Of a DNA stretch of 40,890 nt, positions 21,238-32,025 are shown in pieces. The notes beneath the pieces are model-generated. The model ran no database searches and had not been told where the DNA came from. It saw only the letters and a list, made by a program, of their open reading frames with translations. The stretch is from positions 1-40,890 of the forward strand of contig JAFYPW010000030.1 of NCBI GenBank assembly GCA_017559985.1. The letters run 5' to 3'. Position numbers and translations under genes: made by a program. Numbering within the stretch: position 1 is the stretch's first letter; the number at the start of each line of letters is the position of its first letter. Source of the DNA: Oscillospiraceae bacterium (GTDB taxonomy: Bacteria > Bacillota > Clostridia > Oscillospirales > JAAYXM01).

Positions 21238-21243
21238 ATTGTA

Positions 21244-21490
21244 GAAAAGCAATGATGGAGATAAAGCCGCTTTGTAAAGCCTTCAAGAGAGTTGTGCATC
21301 TGGTGTGAGCACAGCAGGCGGGGAGCGGAAAGGTCACTCCGGAGCTGTAAGGCCGAAATGAAGTAAGCTTTATCGGTGAGCTACGCCGTTATCCGTGCCA
21401 AAGAGGGTGCACACGCACTAAAATTGGGTGGTACCGCGAAGTTTTGTAAACTTTCGCCCCATGTCTTTTTGACGTGGGGTTTTTATTTTT
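21244..21490 (+). ncRNA. T-box leader of valS with terminator
   Basis: This untranslated leader senses uncharged tRNA and controls read-through into valS. The conserved T-box sequence TGGTACCGCG lies at 21429-21438. Upstream are the stem I landmarks AGAGAG (21286-21291) and the distal-loop-like GGTGTGAGC (21302-21310). A GTC at 21333-21335, followed by ACTCCGGAG, is at the place expected for the specifier codon and fits valine. The terminator is CCCCATGTC (21457-21465) with GACGTGGGG (21471-21479) and a long T-run to 21490. Uncharged tRNA-Val should favour the antiterminator and switch valS on. Confidence 0.92.
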
Positions 21491-26440: not shown

Positions 26441-26478
26441 ACCACCTGTTCAATAAAATCTTGAACAGGTGGTTTTTG
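26441..26478 (+). terminator. terminator after the EF-G paralog
   Basis: ACCACCTGTTCAA (26441-26453) and TTGAACAGGTGGT (26461-26473) form a perfect 13-bp stem with a 7-base loop, followed by TTTTG. Confidence 0.92.
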
Positions 26479-26483
26479 TTTGT

Positions 26484-26518
26484 ATATCCTTGTGAAATGT
26501 TTACATATCCTTGTGAAA
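26484..26518 (+). repeat. two direct repeats upstream of the six-gene operon promoter
   Basis: ATATCCTTGTGAAA occurs at 26484-26497 and again at 26505-26518, a 21-bp period or two turns of the helix. It lies 15 bases upstream of the -35 box, which is where an activator acting on one face of DNA would bind. No regulator gene is adjacent. Confidence 0.6.
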
Positions 26519-26532
26519 CAGGGGCTGGTTTA

Positions 26533-26560
26533 TTGACAATTAAGGCTCGGATGATATAAT
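26533..26560 (+). promoter_or_regulatory. consensus promoter of the six-gene operon
   Basis: TTGACA (26533-26538) and TATAAT (26555-26560) are both perfect, with a 16-bp spacer. The untranslated leader is about 55-60 bases. A second copy of GATGATATAATT at 26584-26595 has no -35 partner. Confidence 0.75.
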
Positions 26561-26623
26561 TTAGGTAGAATGGTTTCTGATAAGATGATATAATTAAATA
26601 TACTAAAAAACGGAGGTTGTAAA

Positions 26624-27466
26624 ATGAGTGAGACGAAGTATAAAAACAGAATAGGAGTTATTTATAGATTAGAGAGTCTTGTTGAGGAAGGGAAGGCGGG
26701 TGTCGACCGTCTTCTGGACCTTGGTATTGAATGTGTTCAGCTCAATGGATGGGACCCTACGATGTATACTCAGGAAGTCGCTGATAAGGTGAAAAAGCTT
26801 TTAAAAGGGAAAATTGAAGTGTCTTCTTTCTGGTGCGGATGGTCAGGTCCTCAGCAGTGGAATCCCGTTGACGGACCGTGCACTCTCGGACTGGTTCCTG
26901 AGGCATATCGCGCAATACGCCTCGAAGAGTTGAAGCGCGGTGCTGACTTTACCCGTATGCTCGGTGCACACGATATGGCCACCCATGTCGGCTTCGTGCC
27001 CGAACAGCCGGTCTATTCCGGATACCGTGAGTTGGTCAGCGCAGTTCGTGAACTTGCAGCATACTGTAAAGAGCGCGAAGTGTATTTCAATTTTGAAACA
27101 GGACAGGAAACACCGGTTACGCTTTTGCGCGTGTTCCAGGATGTGGGCGCAGACAATCTCGGTGTGAACCTTGACCCTGCAAACCTCATACTTTACGGCC
27201 GCGGCAACCCGATTGACGCTCTTGGTATCTATGGCGCTAGAATTCGCGGTGTTCACATTAAAGACGGCGACTATACAACAGACCCATACCGCAACGGTAA
27301 AGAGAGAGTTGTCGGAGAGGGTAGTGTAAACTATCCGGTATTCTTGCCAAAGCTTTTGGAGGGTGGATATAAGGGCGATTTATATATCGAAAGAGAAATC
27401 AGCGGTGAACAGCAGATGATTGATATCAGAAAAACAATTGCTTATATTAAGGAGCTTATGGCTTAA
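26624..27466 (+). CDS. sugar phosphate isomerase/epimerase-like TIM-barrel protein
   Basis: A 280-residue member of the xylose isomerase-like (AP endonuclease 2) superfamily, which includes IolE/IolI-type dehydratases and isomerases. Likely metal ligands lie at the ends of strands: Glu in YFNFETGQE, Asp in GVNLDPANLI, His in GVHIKDGDY and Glu in LYIEREISG. The early strand GIECVQLNGWD is also typical. It has no signal peptide. It opens the operon, with CGGAGG before its ATG, and is followed 14 bases later by an oxidoreductase. This isomerase-dehydrogenase pairing is common in inositol, aminocyclitol and rare-sugar catabolism. The substrate is not known. Confidence 0.85.
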   Translation: MSETKYKNRIGVIYRLESLVEEGKAGVDRLLDLGIECVQLNGWDPTMYTQEVADKVKKLLKGKIEVSSFWCGWSGPQQWNPVDGPCTLGLVPEAYRAIRLEELKRGADFTRMLGAHDMATHVGFVPEQPVYSGYRELVSAVRELAAYCKEREVYFNFETGQETPVTLLRVFQDVGADNLGVNLDPANLILYGRGNPIDALGIYGARIRGVHIKDGDYTTDPYRNGKERVVGEGSVNYPVFLPKLLEGGYKGDLYIEREISGEQQMIDIRKTIAYIKELMA

Positions 27467-27480
27467 AAGGAGAGAGTATT

Positions 27481-28497
27481 TTGTATCGTTATGCTATAAT
27501 TGGTTTTGGCGGTCTGGGTAAATTGCATCTTATCAATTTGCTTCGGCTCGAATCAGAACGAAAGGGCGAGCTTAAACTTTGCGCCATATGCGGTGCAGAC
27601 AAAGAAACTGTTTTGCGGAATGTAAGCTTGAATCTGGGTACAGTAGACATTTCAGATGTCGATTTTTCAGAATGCAATTTTTACACCGATTATAAGGAAC
27701 TTATTGAAAAGGAACGCCCCGACTTTATTTTATCTGCGCTTCCAACTTATCTCCACGAAGAAGCGGCAGTATATGCTTTGTCAAAAGGTGTTCATGTCTT
27801 TTCTGAAAAGCCGATGGCACTTACCGTCAAATCTTGTGACAATATAATTGAAGCGGCAAAAAAGAACGACAGAAAGCTTATGATCGGGCAAAGTCTGCGT
27901 TTTTCGCCTGCAATTTTAAAGCTTAAAGAAATTGTTGATAATGAGACATATGGCAAGGTTTGCAGATATGATTTCAGCAGATTTTCTCAGACACCTACCT
28001 GGTCGTGGAACAACTGGATTTTAAACCCTGAATTGAGCGGCGGATGTGTAATGGATCTGCACATACACGACGTTGATATGGTCAACTGGTTTTTCGGGAA
28101 ACCGAAAGCAGTTCATGCAATCGGAACGAGCAGAAAAGTGCCGCTTGAAAATGTTATAGTAAGGTATGACTATGACGATGTTCTGGTTACCGGCAGTGCC
28201 GATTGGTCAATGAGCCAGAAATTCCCGTTTAACGTCAGATGCATTATGAATTTTGAAAGAGCATCGGCTGTTGTTGCGGACGGAAAACTCATTATCTATA
28301 CAGATGATGAGGTGATAGAGCCCGAACTTGTTAACGAAAAGATGCACTATCTTGAAATCAAAGCTTTCGTTGAAATGATACTTGACGGAAAGAGCTGCGA
28401 TGAAATCACAACGCCGGAATCTGTTCGTGATTCTGTGCGCATTGTTCTTGCAGAAGTGGAATCCATTAAAACAAAAAAAGAGGTTCTTATTGTATAA
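27481..28497 (+). CDS. Gfo/Idh/MocA-family oxidoreductase
   Basis: A 338-residue NAD(P)-dependent sugar or inositol dehydrogenase-like enzyme. The N-terminal Rossmann fold starts YAIIGFGGLGKLH (residues 4-16). The family motif EKPMA is in GVHVFSEKPMALT (about residues 98-110). The C-terminal alpha/beta domain includes GGCVMDLHIHDVDMVNWFFG, whose HIHDVD matches the usual catalytic His/Asp region of the family. The start is TTG at 27481, with AAAGGAGAG upstream. It is co-transcribed with the TIM-barrel gene before it and the acetyltransferase gene 18 bases after it. Confidence 0.9.
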   Translation: MYRYAIIGFGGLGKLHLINLLRLESERKGELKLCAICGADKETVLRNVSLNLGTVDISDVDFSECNFYTDYKELIEKERPDFILSALPTYLHEEAAVYALSKGVHVFSEKPMALTVKSCDNIIEAAKKNDRKLMIGQSLRFSPAILKLKEIVDNETYGKVCRYDFSRFSQTPTWSWNNWILNPELSGGCVMDLHIHDVDMVNWFFGKPKAVHAIGTSRKVPLENVIVRYDYDDVLVTGSADWSMSQKFPFNVRCIMNFERASAVVADGKLIIYTDDEVIEPELVNEKMHYLEIKAFVEMILDGKSCDEITTPESVRDSVRIVLAEVESIKTKKEVLIV

Positions 28498-28515
28498 AGG
28501 AAAAGAGGAATAAAA

Positions 28516-29343
28516 ATGGTAACGTCACAACAAGTCCGGGAAGCTTTGATAAAGCTCGGAATAAAAGAAGGCGACTCTATCCTGACACACTCGTCTTTTA
28601 AAAGTCTCGGAGAAACAGAAAACGGTGCAGCAACAGTCGTTGAAGGAATGAAACTTGCTGTTGGTGAGGACGGAACGGTTTTGTTTCCGACCCTCTGTCA
28701 GAAAGACTGGCCGAATGTTTATAAAAACTGGAATATGGATGCAGAGTCCGATGTCGGATATTTAACGAATTATTTCAGAAAACTGCCGGAGGCTTTGCGA
28801 AGCAACCAGGCAACACACTCTGTTGCAGCTATCGGCAAAAAGGCAGCCTATGTTACGGAAACGCACGGGGAAACAGGCCGTCGTTACGGCATATTCGGTG
28901 ACACTCCGTTTTCTGCGGATTCTCCGTGGGAAAAGATGTATCATATAGATACAAAGGTTGTTTTTCTTGGCGTTGGCATAAGAAAATGTACATTCAGACA
29001 TTTTGCGGAATATTGTTTTATGGAAGACTGCTTAAAACGCGCAGAAGGCAGTTCTGAATATGACCGCCTGAAAGGTCAGGTGTGGTGCTATGAAAACTGG
29101 GACGCTGCCGGCGTCTGGCCCCATCTTGACAGCGAATACATACAGACGGTTATGGAAAAACGGGGAATGGTTCATAAAGCAACCTGCGGAAATGCAGAGC
29201 TTCTGATGGTATCATCCGAGGATTTTGTTGATATTTCAATGGAGCTTCTGAAAAACAAGGAAAAAAAGGCACTGCTTGAAAATCACGATATATGGACAGT
29301 TCAGACCTTTATTGACTGGGTGGAGGAAATAGAAAAATTATGA
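28516..29343 (+). CDS. AAC(3)-type aminoglycoside N-acetyltransferase family protein
   Basis: A 275-residue acetyl-CoA-dependent N-acetyltransferase of the antibiotic NAT (AAC(3)/YokD) family. Matching segments include LTHSSFKSLG near the start, GTVLFPTL, RSNQATHSVAAIG (the conserved R-S-x-H-type acetyl-CoA/catalytic region) and ADSPWEKMYHIDTKVVFLGVGI. Family members that are not on resistance elements often have unknown natural substrates. The setting between sugar enzymes and a PIG-L deacetylase argues for an amino sugar or aminocyclitol substrate, not a drug. The stop overlaps the next start (ATGA). AAAGGAAAAGAGGAA precedes the ATG. Confidence 0.85.
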   Translation: MVTSQQVREALIKLGIKEGDSILTHSSFKSLGETENGAATVVEGMKLAVGEDGTVLFPTLCQKDWPNVYKNWNMDAESDVGYLTNYFRKLPEALRSNQATHSVAAIGKKAAYVTETHGETGRRYGIFGDTPFSADSPWEKMYHIDTKVVFLGVGIRKCTFRHFAEYCFMEDCLKRAEGSSEYDRLKGQVWCYENWDAAGVWPHLDSEYIQTVMEKRGMVHKATCGNAELLMVSSEDFVDISMELLKNKEKKALLENHDIWTVQTFIDWVEEIEKL

Positions 29344-30323
29344 GCCAGATTGTATATGATGAAGCATATGAACGCGATTTAGCAAAATATTTTGATGAAA
29401 ATTTGCCTGAAAAGATTTATGATGCGCATTTTCACATCAGCCGTGCTTATACGGAGCGTTGCGGCTATCCCGGAACGCCGTTTGAGCAGTACAGCCAATT
29501 TATGCAAAAATACATATGCAGACCTATGAGCGGCGGTATGGTAATGCCTCAGCCGTCAAGATTGCACACGCCGGAAACTCTTGCGGATGAAAATCAATAC
29601 AATCTTGCGCTCGCAAAAGAAAAAGGACTTGCGGCCGGGTTGATTGTAACACCCGGATGTGGGCGGGAAGCAACTGAGAAAATGCTGGATACGCATGAAC
29701 ATATAAAGGTTTTAAAGCCTTATCATGCATACTGTCCTATGGATATGAACAGGTATGAATCTGATATTCTTGATTATGCTCCGGAGTGGATGTGGCAGTT
29801 GGCAAATGACAGAGAGTTTCCGATTCTGATTCACCTCTCGCATTATCAGAATATGCTCAATGACGAAAATAACTGGGGACAGATTCGTATGTTGTGCGCT
29901 AAATATCCCAGAGTGAAGCTGATTCTGGCACATTGTGCAATGGGGCATAATGTCAGAAAACTTCGTCTCGGGCTTGAACATATAAAAGATATAGAAAATA
30001 TCTGGTTTGATTGCTCAGGCGCTGCAGAAACAATGTCAATTTACTATTGCCTGAAAGCATTCGGTGCGGAGCGTATGATGTATGGCGGGGATTATGATCA
30101 CGGCGAATCTGTTGGTCGCATATGCTCCTTTGGAAGTAATTTTATCGGCTTTCATGAGCCGTATATAAATAAAGAAGCAATACCTCCGGATTATAAATAT
30201 CAGCCACTGAACAACGCGCAGGAGTGCACAATGGCGGCTCTTGAAGCAATAGAGGTGCTTGGTTTGAGTAAAACGGATGTAGAAAATATATTCTATAACA
30301 ATGCCGCAAAACTGTTTGCTTGA
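29340..30323 (+). CDS. amidohydrolase family protein (TIM-barrel metal-dependent hydrolase)
   Basis: A 327-residue protein of the amidohydrolase-related group (Pfam Amidohydro_2-like). Metal-binding candidates are the H-x-H in YDAHFHIS (about residue 30), His in ILIHLSHYQN, His in LILAHCAMGHN and Asp in YGGDYDHGE. Known members hydrolyse or decarboxylate cyclic compounds, including sugar lactones. Its start overlaps the acetyltransferase stop by 4 bases, implying coupled synthesis. The substrate is unknown; a ring-opening or lactonase step in the pathway is an inference. Confidence 0.82.
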   Translation: MSQIVYDEAYERDLAKYFDENLPEKIYDAHFHISRAYTERCGYPGTPFEQYSQFMQKYICRPMSGGMVMPQPSRLHTPETLADENQYNLALAKEKGLAAGLIVTPGCGREATEKMLDTHEHIKVLKPYHAYCPMDMNRYESDILDYAPEWMWQLANDREFPILIHLSHYQNMLNDENNWGQIRMLCAKYPRVKLILAHCAMGHNVRKLRLGLEHIKDIENIWFDCSGAAETMSIYYCLKAFGAERMMYGGDYDHGESVGRICSFGSNFIGFHEPYINKEAIPPDYKYQPLNNAQECTMAALEAIEVLGLSKTDVENIFYNNAAKLFA

Positions 30324-30346
30324 TTTTTTGAAGGTGCGTGTTATAA

Positions 30347-31222
30347 ATGGAAAAGCAGCTTAAAATTTTAATGATAGGTGCACACCCCGATGACAACGAT
30401 TTTCGTTGCGGCGGGACGGCGCTCAACTTTATAGAAAAAGGACATTCCGTAAGATTTTTGTCGGTGTGCAGTGGTAGTGCCGGACATCATACTATGTCTC
30501 CGGACGAGCTCTGCCTGCGCAGACAGAAAGAATCGGAGGCGGCATCTGCAATAAGCGGAATTGAGTATGACATATGGGATATTCCAGATTGCGAAGTTAT
30601 GGCTGATCTTGAAACGCGCAAACGCATGGTTTGCTATATAAGAGAGTATCAACCGGATATTATTTTCACACATCGTGCAAATGATTATCATGCGGATCAC
30701 AGAAACGTTGCATTGTTGGTTCAGGATGCTTCATATCTTCTGATAGTTCCTAATTTCTGTCCCGATGTCAGTGCTTTGAAAAAGACGCCTGTCATTATGT
30801 ATTTTTACGATAAATTCAAAAATCCGTCTTTTGCGCCTGATGTCGTCGTTTCAATTGACAGCAAAATTGATAAAAAATATCAGATGATCGATTGTTACGA
30901 GTCGCAGGTCTATGAATGGTTGCCGTACACGAACGGAGTCCTTTGCGAAGTGCCGAAGGATAAAGAAGAACGCCTTGAATGGCTGAAAAATCCGCGCGTC
31001 CCGCGTGACGGAACAATGTTGACCGAAAAAGACCTGAATATTCCCATAAAGAGTAATAACAGTGAATACAGAGAAGCTGCGCCTGCTGTGAAGTTCCGCG
31101 ATAAGTTAATAGAACGCTATGGTGAAGAAGGAAAATCGGTTCTCTTTGCAGAAGCGTTCCAGGTTTCTGAATACGGTTCACCGCTGTCTTTTGAGAAAGG
31201 TAAAGAAATTTTCACTTTTTAG
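30347..31222 (+). CDS. PIG-L family deacetylase
   Basis: A 291-residue zinc-dependent N-deacetylase of the PIG-L/LmbE family, which removes acetyl groups from GlcNAc-type substrates (for example MshB, BtrD and BshB). The zinc and catalytic motif AHPDDNDFRCGG is at residues 13-24, and the second ligand motif is in THRANDYHADHRNVA (H-x-D-H). There is no signal peptide, so it works on a cytosolic small molecule. It lies 23 bases after the amidohydrolase and 16 bases before the DUF4886 gene. Its pairing with an N-acetyltransferase in one operon is notable. Confidence 0.9.
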   Translation: MEKQLKILMIGAHPDDNDFRCGGTALNFIEKGHSVRFLSVCSGSAGHHTMSPDELCLRRQKESEAASAISGIEYDIWDIPDCEVMADLETRKRMVCYIREYQPDIIFTHRANDYHADHRNVALLVQDASYLLIVPNFCPDVSALKKTPVIMYFYDKFKNPSFAPDVVVSIDSKIDKKYQMIDCYESQVYEWLPYTNGVLCEVPKDKEERLEWLKNPRVPRDGTMLTEKDLNIPIKSNNSEYREAAPAVKFRDKLIERYGEEGKSVLFAEAFQVSEYGSPLSFEKGKEIFTF

Positions 31223-31238
31223 TGTATGAGGTGATATG

Positions 31239-31982
31239 ATGCAAATTCTCTCAATCGGAAACAGCTTTTCGCAAGATGCACAAAGATACCTTAATCGCAT
31301 CGCAAAAGCTGATGGCTTTCAGCTCAATACATTCAACCTTTACATAGGCGGTTGTTCGCTTTCGACTCATTACAGAAATATGATGAGTGAAGAACGTGTT
31401 TATGCTCTTGAAATGAACGGGGAAAGCACAGGGTTTAATGTGTCGCTTAAAGAAGCTCTTTTAAATCGTGACTGGGACGTTATAACTCTCCAGCAGGCGA
31501 GTCATAAATCTCCGTATTACGACACCTATCAGCCTTATCTGAATAAAATTGCAGAATATGTAAGAGGCTGTGTTCCGGGTGCACGAATTGCAGTTCATCA
31601 GACCTGGGCATACGAGCAGGGAAGTCAGCGGCTTAATGCAGAACTCGGATATGATAATCATACGGATATGTTTGATGACCTTAAGATGGCTTATTCAAAA
31701 GCTGCAAGGGACATTGGCGCAGATTTTCTGATTCCGTCGGGAGAGGTTTTGGAAGAGCTTGTTTTGTCCGGAATAAAGGCACATCGCGACACGTTTCACG
31801 CAAGTCTCGGCGTTGGCAGATATGCGCTTGGGCTCATCTGGTATTCTATGTTGACCGGGCGTGATATCGCGAACAATTTATTTTCTGATTTTGACGTTGA
31901 AGTTTCTCTTTCGGATGTTGAAACTGCAAAAAAATGCGTTTTGGAGTGTTTTAGGAAATACAGAATTGCAGAATATAAATAA
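31239..31982 (+). CDS. DUF4886 SGNH-like hydrolase
   Basis: A 247-residue protein of the DUF4886 group, related to SGNH/GDSL esterases. The block I serine is in LSIGNSFSQDAQRYL (Ser at about residue 9). The SGNH glycine may be in YIGGCS, an Asn-containing block is not clear, and the C-terminal dyad is in AHRDTFHASLG (Asp and His). There is no signal peptide. The second of two adjacent ATGs (31239) is chosen because GAGGTGA is better spaced for it. It is the last gene of the operon, before a terminator. An O-deacylase role is plausible but unproved. Confidence 0.8.
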   Translation: MQILSIGNSFSQDAQRYLNRIAKADGFQLNTFNLYIGGCSLSTHYRNMMSEERVYALEMNGESTGFNVSLKEALLNRDWDVITLQQASHKSPYYDTYQPYLNKIAEYVRGCVPGARIAVHQTWAYEQGSQRLNAELGYDNHTDMFDDLKMAYSKAARDIGADFLIPSGEVLEELVLSGIKAHRDTFHASLGVGRYALGLIWYSMLTGRDIANNLFSDFDVEVSLSDVETAKKCVLECFRKYRIAEYK

Positions 31983-31991
31983 GAGTTACCA

Positions 31992-32025
31992 AAAACCCGT
32001 GGGAATACACATTCCTGTGGGTTTT
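31992..32025 (+). terminator. terminator of the six-gene operon
   Basis: AAAACCCGTGGGAAT (31992-32006) pairs with ATTCCTGTGGGTTTT (32011-32025), with three wobble pairs in the middle and a 4-base loop. Confidence 0.85.

Follow-up and report, generated by a model that had tools for sequence, protein, structure and literature searches.

A six-gene operon in an Oscillospiraceae genome with a possible role in acylated amino-sugar catabolism

The window analysed here, a stretch of 40,890 nucleotides from Oscillospiraceae bacterium, an uncultured gut member of the Clostridia (contig JAFYPW010000030.1 of assembly GCA_017559985.1), carries six genes that by their anatomy form one operon. Each is of a known enzyme kind, while the combination is new: a TIM barrel (A), a Gfo/Idh/MocA dehydrogenase (B), an AAC(3)-type acetyltransferase (C), an Amidohydro_2 protein (D), a PIG-L protein (E) and a DUF4886 protein (F). 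Our preferred interpretation, to which we assign about an even chance, is that the operon serves the catabolism, in the cytosol, of an amino-sugar glycoside or oligosaccharide that is N-acylated, perhaps O-acylated as well, and is supplied by another locus. The exact six-gene set is rare and was found nowhere else in the genomes searched; its sub-modules are commoner, with A–B, C–amidohydrolase and A/B–PIG-L linkages present in other genomes. What is most original here is that an AAC(3)-family gene and an amidohydrolase gene recur as a pair. The features of the operon and its borders are as follows.

26441..26473, + strand: hairpin terminating the EF-G-like gene upstream and parting the operon from it (-20.1 kcal/mol, z -5.7)
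26484..26518, + strand: perfect 14-bp direct repeat ATATCCTTGTGAAA (copies at 26484-26497 and 26505-26518, 21-bp period)
26533..26560, + strand: sigma-70-type promoter, TTGACA-16-TATAAT (12/12 match, extended -10)
26624..27466, + strand: gene A, predicted AP_endonuc_2 TIM barrel (Pfam; invariant metal-site pattern)
27481..28497, + strand: gene B, predicted Gfo/Idh/MocA dehydrogenase (TTG start; Pfam; invariant motifs)
28516..29343, + strand: gene C, predicted Antibiotic_NAT (AAC(3)-fold) acyltransferase (Pfam; invariant H162 and E165)
29340..30323, + strand: gene D, predicted Amidohydro_2 metal hydrolase (Pfam; ATGA overlap with C)
30347..31222, + strand: gene E, predicted member of the PIG-L N-deacetylase family (Pfam; metal motifs)
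31236..31982, + strand: gene F, predicted DUF4886 SGNH-clan hydrolase (Pfam; loosest member)
31992..32025, + strand: hairpin 3' of F, probable weak-tailed terminator (-16 kcal/mol, z -3.5)

The six open reading frames all lie on the + strand, span 26624-31982 and are separated by intergenic gaps of 14, 18, -4, 23 and 13 bases. The promoter is the sole 12/12 site of the scanned region, and both flanking hairpins are more stable than all 200 shuffles. The first-pass annotation of this DNA had proposed a single operon with gaps of 23 bases or fewer behind one strong promoter, which the gene map bears out; it had also proposed one terminator, and here the hairpin at 31992-32025 does beat every shuffle, but its tail is poor in T and it is therefore the weaker terminator. 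Its view that all six enzymes look cytosolic agrees with the lack of a signal peptide at the start of any of the six proteins (sequences read directly). As it had also stated, there is no transporter and no kinase within the six-gene operon; since one relative (L132) has a PfkB kinase and the cluster of another (L098) an MFS-like gene, this lack is particular to the window copy.

A search with D of 84,980 species genomes returned seven relatives. In L044, from a Clostridia metagenome-assembled genome (buffalo colon), A-B-C-D-E are collinear with the window genes at 81, 72, 67, 76 and 74% identity, respectively. This operon has an SGNH hydrolase gene and another TIM-barrel gene 5' of A, and an L-rhamnose mutarotase gene (PF05336, 103 bits) takes the place of F at its 3' end. 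F is absent from it, and relatives of F in three other genomes (59–72% identity) stand apart from A–E, making F the loosest member of the operon. The refutation test of the first-pass annotation, co-occurrence of the six families elsewhere, thus has a mixed outcome: the A–E order is conserved in one other genome and sub-modules recur, whereas F is not linked to the rest and C and D are rare. Between D and E of L044 (L044:10970-11020) a strong hairpin (-18.6 kcal/mol, z -3.7) precedes a T run and is perhaps an attenuator; a terminator scan between D and E of the window gave no counterpart.

Wider neighbourhood counts were made in a sample of 391 genomes of the class Clostridia; the 45 A loci combine this sample with directed fetches, and the contrasts between 200 and 228 genes draw on the sample loci alone. 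Relatives of A (E-value up to 1e-45) occur in 38 of the 391 genomes, and a Gfo gene (GH109-type counted in) is the immediate same-strand neighbour of A in 28 of 45 loci. Gfo matches account for 31/200 genes within three of A against 3/228 farther off (p about 2e-8), and additional TIM barrels for 9/200 against 1/228 (p 0.006). PIG-L genes join the A–Gfo pair in L132 and L144 and A alone in L098. The order in L132 is A, Gfo, PIG-L, a PfkB/IolC-like kinase, a mannitol-1-phosphate-dehydrogenase-like protein and a NagB-like protein, so that a kinase and a NagB-like deaminase, both without counterpart in the window operon, occur in this relative. An M24 gene lies 3' of the relative of E in L144 (L144:4834-6036).

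Where the neighbourhood of C could be read, C is directly followed by an Amidohydro_2 gene in four of five places (G000, the host genome, and G309, G429 and G108), the gene after C in the fifth (G149) encoding a creatininase. The amidohydrolases of G309, G429 and G108 have no BLAST similarity to D, meaning that two amidohydrolase clades pair with C; as G309 and G429 share one genus, the four pairs are not four independent events. In G309 the order (L207) is C, amidohydrolase, Gfo, phosphodiesterase, a GH20b-like protein, a 385-residue protein and PIG-L. In L045, C and D are joined in a single open frame of 579 codons (L045:9173-10912). We put forward, as a tentative possibility, that C and the amidohydrolase form a dedicated catabolic two-enzyme unit in which acetylation of a sugar amine would set up hydrolysis. 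At L209:224-3325, the gene following a relative of C belongs to the creatininase family, and an M24 creatinase-like gene lies immediately upstream.

All six families named in the first-pass annotation score over their Pfam cut-offs. Against the NCBIfam equivalog models, A, B, C and E all fall under the cut-offs, while neither D nor F is matched at all. In alignments, the catalytic motifs of A–E are nevertheless intact. A matches AP_endonuc_2 with 100 bits and has 3tva as its closest solved relative; E158, D184, H211 and E256 are invariant, an E/D/H/E-type metal site by sequence pattern only. The spacing of these residues is nearer to that of ketose 3-epimerases, and for this reason epimerisation or isomerisation of a keto sugar is the preferred activity for A. 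B matches GFO_IDH_MocA with 73 bits, and its invariant E109-K110-P111, D192 and H196 correspond to the EKP lysine and DxxxH motif of Gfo/Idh/MocA dehydrogenases (PMC7535918). The RgNanOx/YjhC enzymes provide an example of a Gfo/Idh/MocA enzyme acting on an N-acetylated amino sugar via a keto intermediate, RgNanOx coming from a gut Clostridia species (PMC7535918); unlike B, they perform a one-enzyme step of a sialic acid pathway, and the likeness in sequence is distant (50 bits to the YjhC chain).

A and B together also recall the deglycosylation of plant or host O- or C-glycosides by oxidation, elimination, hydration and reduction, as for levoglucosan or puerarin, in which case C–F would trim acyl or amide decorations and no amino sugar would be required. 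B and A are the same enzyme kinds as LgdA and LgdB of Bacillus smithii, whose levoglucosan operon encodes four enzymes (LgdA, LgdB1, LgdB2 and LgdC; PMC7676230), and as those of the Agrobacterium tumefaciens OGE operon (PMC10628242). In both systems the keto sugar is produced by a Gfo enzyme, and TIM barrels then eliminate or hydrate (PMC7676230, PMC10628242). The levoglucosan operon resembles the window in placing a Gfo/Idh/MocA dehydrogenase beside sugar-phosphate-isomerase-like TIM barrels for keto-sugar chemistry, and the OGE operon and the C-glycoside eliminases, the latter also found in gut anaerobes (PMC10628242), in combining a metal-site TIM barrel with a Gfo oxidoreductase. B additionally matches DgpA and glucuronide-3-dehydrogenase chains, and second TIM barrels stand alongside A and B in L044, L092 and L093. 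However, the levoglucosan operon lacks an acetyltransferase, amidohydrolase, PIG-L protein and SGNH hydrolase, and the proposed OGE pathway has no acyl-handling enzymes. The window operon has one TIM barrel and one Gfo gene, whereas the Lgd/OGE type has a further TIM barrel, the hydratase, and a further Gfo enzyme, the reductase. Furthermore, by sequence register the position two residues past the first metal ligand of A is Gly160 (ETGQE motif), where the catalytic His of the eliminases would be expected (His132/His134 in AtOGE; PMC10628242), and the PIG-L and NagB-like neighbours would be left unexplained. We regard this deglycosylation route as rather unlikely. A literature search on 3-keto-glucuronide glycosidases found no paper.

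D matches Amidohydro_2 with 53.5 bits, over the Pfam cut-off, with H30, H32, H165 and H198 invariant and an Asp in its GGDYDH motif, and no solved relative was found by sequence below an E-value of 0.04. Its predicted model (pLDDT 82) matches many structures of the amidohydrolase superfamily, best a COG3618-type fold (4do7, 4dlf; Z 22.4, root-mean-square deviation 3.1, 245 aligned), with decarboxylases, LigY, LigJ and others at Z 18–22, too near to this match to tell lactonase, decarboxylase and hydrolase apart. E matches PIG-L (PF02585) with 91.9 bits (gathering cut-off 28.2), and H13, D15, D16, D113, H115, D117 and H118 are invariant, indicating intact AHPDD and HADH (HxDH) metal motifs. It shares family and Zn motif with the BshB, MshB and diacetylchitobiose deacetylases, but differs in scoring under the equivalog cut-off for the bacillithiol deacetylase BshB1 (104.1 bits against 182.5), in about 80 additional C-terminal residues that are conserved among its relatives and in its operon context. 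F matches DUF4886, of the SGNH clan, with 212 bits (gathering cut-off 26.7); no member of DUF4886 has a known activity (PMC9487903). DUF4886-like stretches also lie within open frames of 1000–2900 codons in G476, G478, G479, G443 and G474, and the length of these frames suggests that the domain occurs in giant proteins as well.

We infer the substrate, the step order and every reaction of the pathway proposed for the operon. F would take off an O-acyl group and B would oxidise a ring hydroxyl with NAD to give a keto sugar, on which A, as a metal-dependent TIM barrel, would isomerise, epimerise or eliminate, freeing an N-acyl hexosamine. E would then deacylate the nitrogen. C and D are proposed to work as a coupled pair, in which C would use acetyl-CoA to (re)acylate an amine and D would open a lactone, lactam or amide. 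Through a kinase and a NagB-like deaminase with genes at other loci, the product would enter glucosamine-type metabolism. A literature search on this enzyme combination found no matching pathway, and the first-pass annotation likewise knew of none with this exact set.

The clues to the substrate come from neighbouring genes. A GH123 gene lies 7 bp upstream of A in L092, and DUF4838 and GH109 genes lie near other relatives of operon members, DUF4838 corresponding to the endo-beta-N-acetylglucosaminidase family GH163 (PMC9870897). NagB-like genes are found near PIG-L relatives in five loci, with a GH3 gene nearest to beta-N-acetylhexosaminidase (NagZ-like) in one, and in the host genome itself another PIG-L gene, in L240, adjoins a NagB-like one. 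As an L-rhamnose mutarotase gene closes the L044 operon, a reducing pyranose is suggested, and together with the NagB-like, GH123, GH163 and GH109 neighbours this provides circumstantial support for a reducing N-acylated amino sugar rather than an aminocyclitol. The first-pass proposal had left both classes open; the amino sugar is now the better supported of the two, the aminocyclitol being weakened by the IolE and IolG scores given below and by the L044 mutarotase.

A family of about 700 residues adjoins relatives of A, B, C and PIG-L (L045:16881-18941, L095:6811-8913, L207:12363-14474 and L239:7352-9451) and is also present in the host genome as two contig-end fragments (G000 C17, C22). It gives at most a faint match to GH20 domain 2, with no Pfam match above cut-off, and the L207 member has no PDB relative at an E-value up to 1. 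This GH20b-like family is probably an undescribed glycosidase family.

Several observations weigh against the amino-sugar pathway. The PIG-L association with A is statistically weak, at 2/200 genes near A against 0/228 (p 0.22) and two co-locations where 0.17 would be expected (p 0.013). The C–D part is rare: of the 391 genomes, 8 have C and 16 have D-like proteins, and no second C–D pair of D's own clade was present in that sample. Only one GH123 gene occurs among 66 pooled neighbours, and most A operons have no recognisable amino-sugar glycosidase. Acetylation and deacetylation within one catabolic route would seem to work against each other, unless the two enzymes have different target groups. 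Finally, the C–D fusion of L045 calls for caution: while the absence of a start codon for the D frame at the join favours a genuine fusion, the contig label reads cov_1.47, there is a GGG run where the two halves meet, and in the D half Asn replaces the catalytic Asp and about 20 residues are missing.

Such doubts bear on whether there is a single pathway at all: A–B may be a real unit, with C–D, E and F separate hydrolase genes gathered behind a strong promoter. The separation of F from A–E in other genomes fits this, as do the free exchange of such genes among clusters of this class and the variable slot after valS and the EF-G-like gene in congeners. We nevertheless consider it unlikely, as five genes are collinear in L044, C pairs with two unrelated amidohydrolase clades and C, Gfo and PIG-L genes come together again in L207. 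Catabolism of an aminocyclitol or inositol (rhizopine-like), with B as dehydrogenase, A as inosose dehydratase and E and C acting on the amine, is quite improbable too. The best solved relative of B is an inositol 2-dehydrogenase (3cea, 78 bits), B scores 105.6 bits against the IolG model, A has a faint match to IolE and L132 encodes an IolC-like PfkB kinase. The equivalog cut-offs, however, are 355 for IolG and 290 for IolE (A scores 19.8 bits), a mutarotase for reducing sugars closes the L044 operon and the related clusters examined contain no further gene recognisable as one of inositol catabolism.

C belongs to the Antibiotic_NAT family (PF02522, 134.9 bits, gathering cut-off 25) and shares the conserved His and Glu (H162 and E165, invariant in the alignment) with AAC(3) enzymes and with BA2930, YokD and FrbF. 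It differs from AAC(3) enzymes in its pairing with an amidohydrolase in a sugar operon and in lying far below the equivalog cut-offs (101.3 bits against 270 for AAC(3), lower still for the resistance subfamilies), and by this NCBIfam test C does not appear to be an AAC(3) resistance enzyme. Antibiotic detoxification, in which C would modify an aminoglycoside and E or D would modify it further, is thus very improbable despite the family name, the neighbours of C being sugar enzymes and its relatives accompanying amidohydrolases.

The 14-bp direct repeat, absent from the first-pass feature list, ends 14 bp 5' of the -35 box and has two copies only in the window (up to 2 mismatches allowed), against 0.38 expected. 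Its layout is that of AraC-type activator sites, making it a candidate site of this kind; AraC-type regulators adjoin A in several relatives, with none beside A in the window. A genome-wide search gave no further exact copy. Sites with one mismatch numbered two, compared with one for the reversed control, and no regulon came out of this search. The GC content of the operon (0.433) is nearly equal to that of the rest (0.435) and gives no sign of recent foreign origin. PHROGs returned only two families, of unknown function (for C and E), and PADLOC none, leaving a phage or defence origin unsupported; viral contigs scanned with D yielded no relative. A comparison with congeners revealed no empty site: the two flanks are on separate contigs in both congeners where the upstream gene has a close copy, and two others have no match to that gene. 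Judged by eye, the cargo that follows valS and the EF-G-like gene differs among congeners: of L055 and L056 (G003 and G001), one has an AraC-type regulator together with a Gfo-like gene there, the other a TIM-barrel-like gene. A T-box leader lies upstream of valS at 21243-21464 of the window (Rfam RF00230, 105 bits).

The C–amidohydrolase and A–B pairs are compact units that can be directly expressed and assayed; neither DUF4886 nor the 700-residue GH20b-like family that recurs in these clusters has a known activity. If the amino-sugar interpretation is correct, uncultured gut Clostridia would hold a modular route for acylated amino sugars based on keto-sugar chemistry, and sugar metabolism would be the job of an AAC(3)-family enzyme that has resistance determinants among its relatives. 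The C–amidohydrolase unit, if real, would represent a house-keeping metabolic role for an aminoglycoside-resistance family, within an undescribed route for N-acylated amino sugars.

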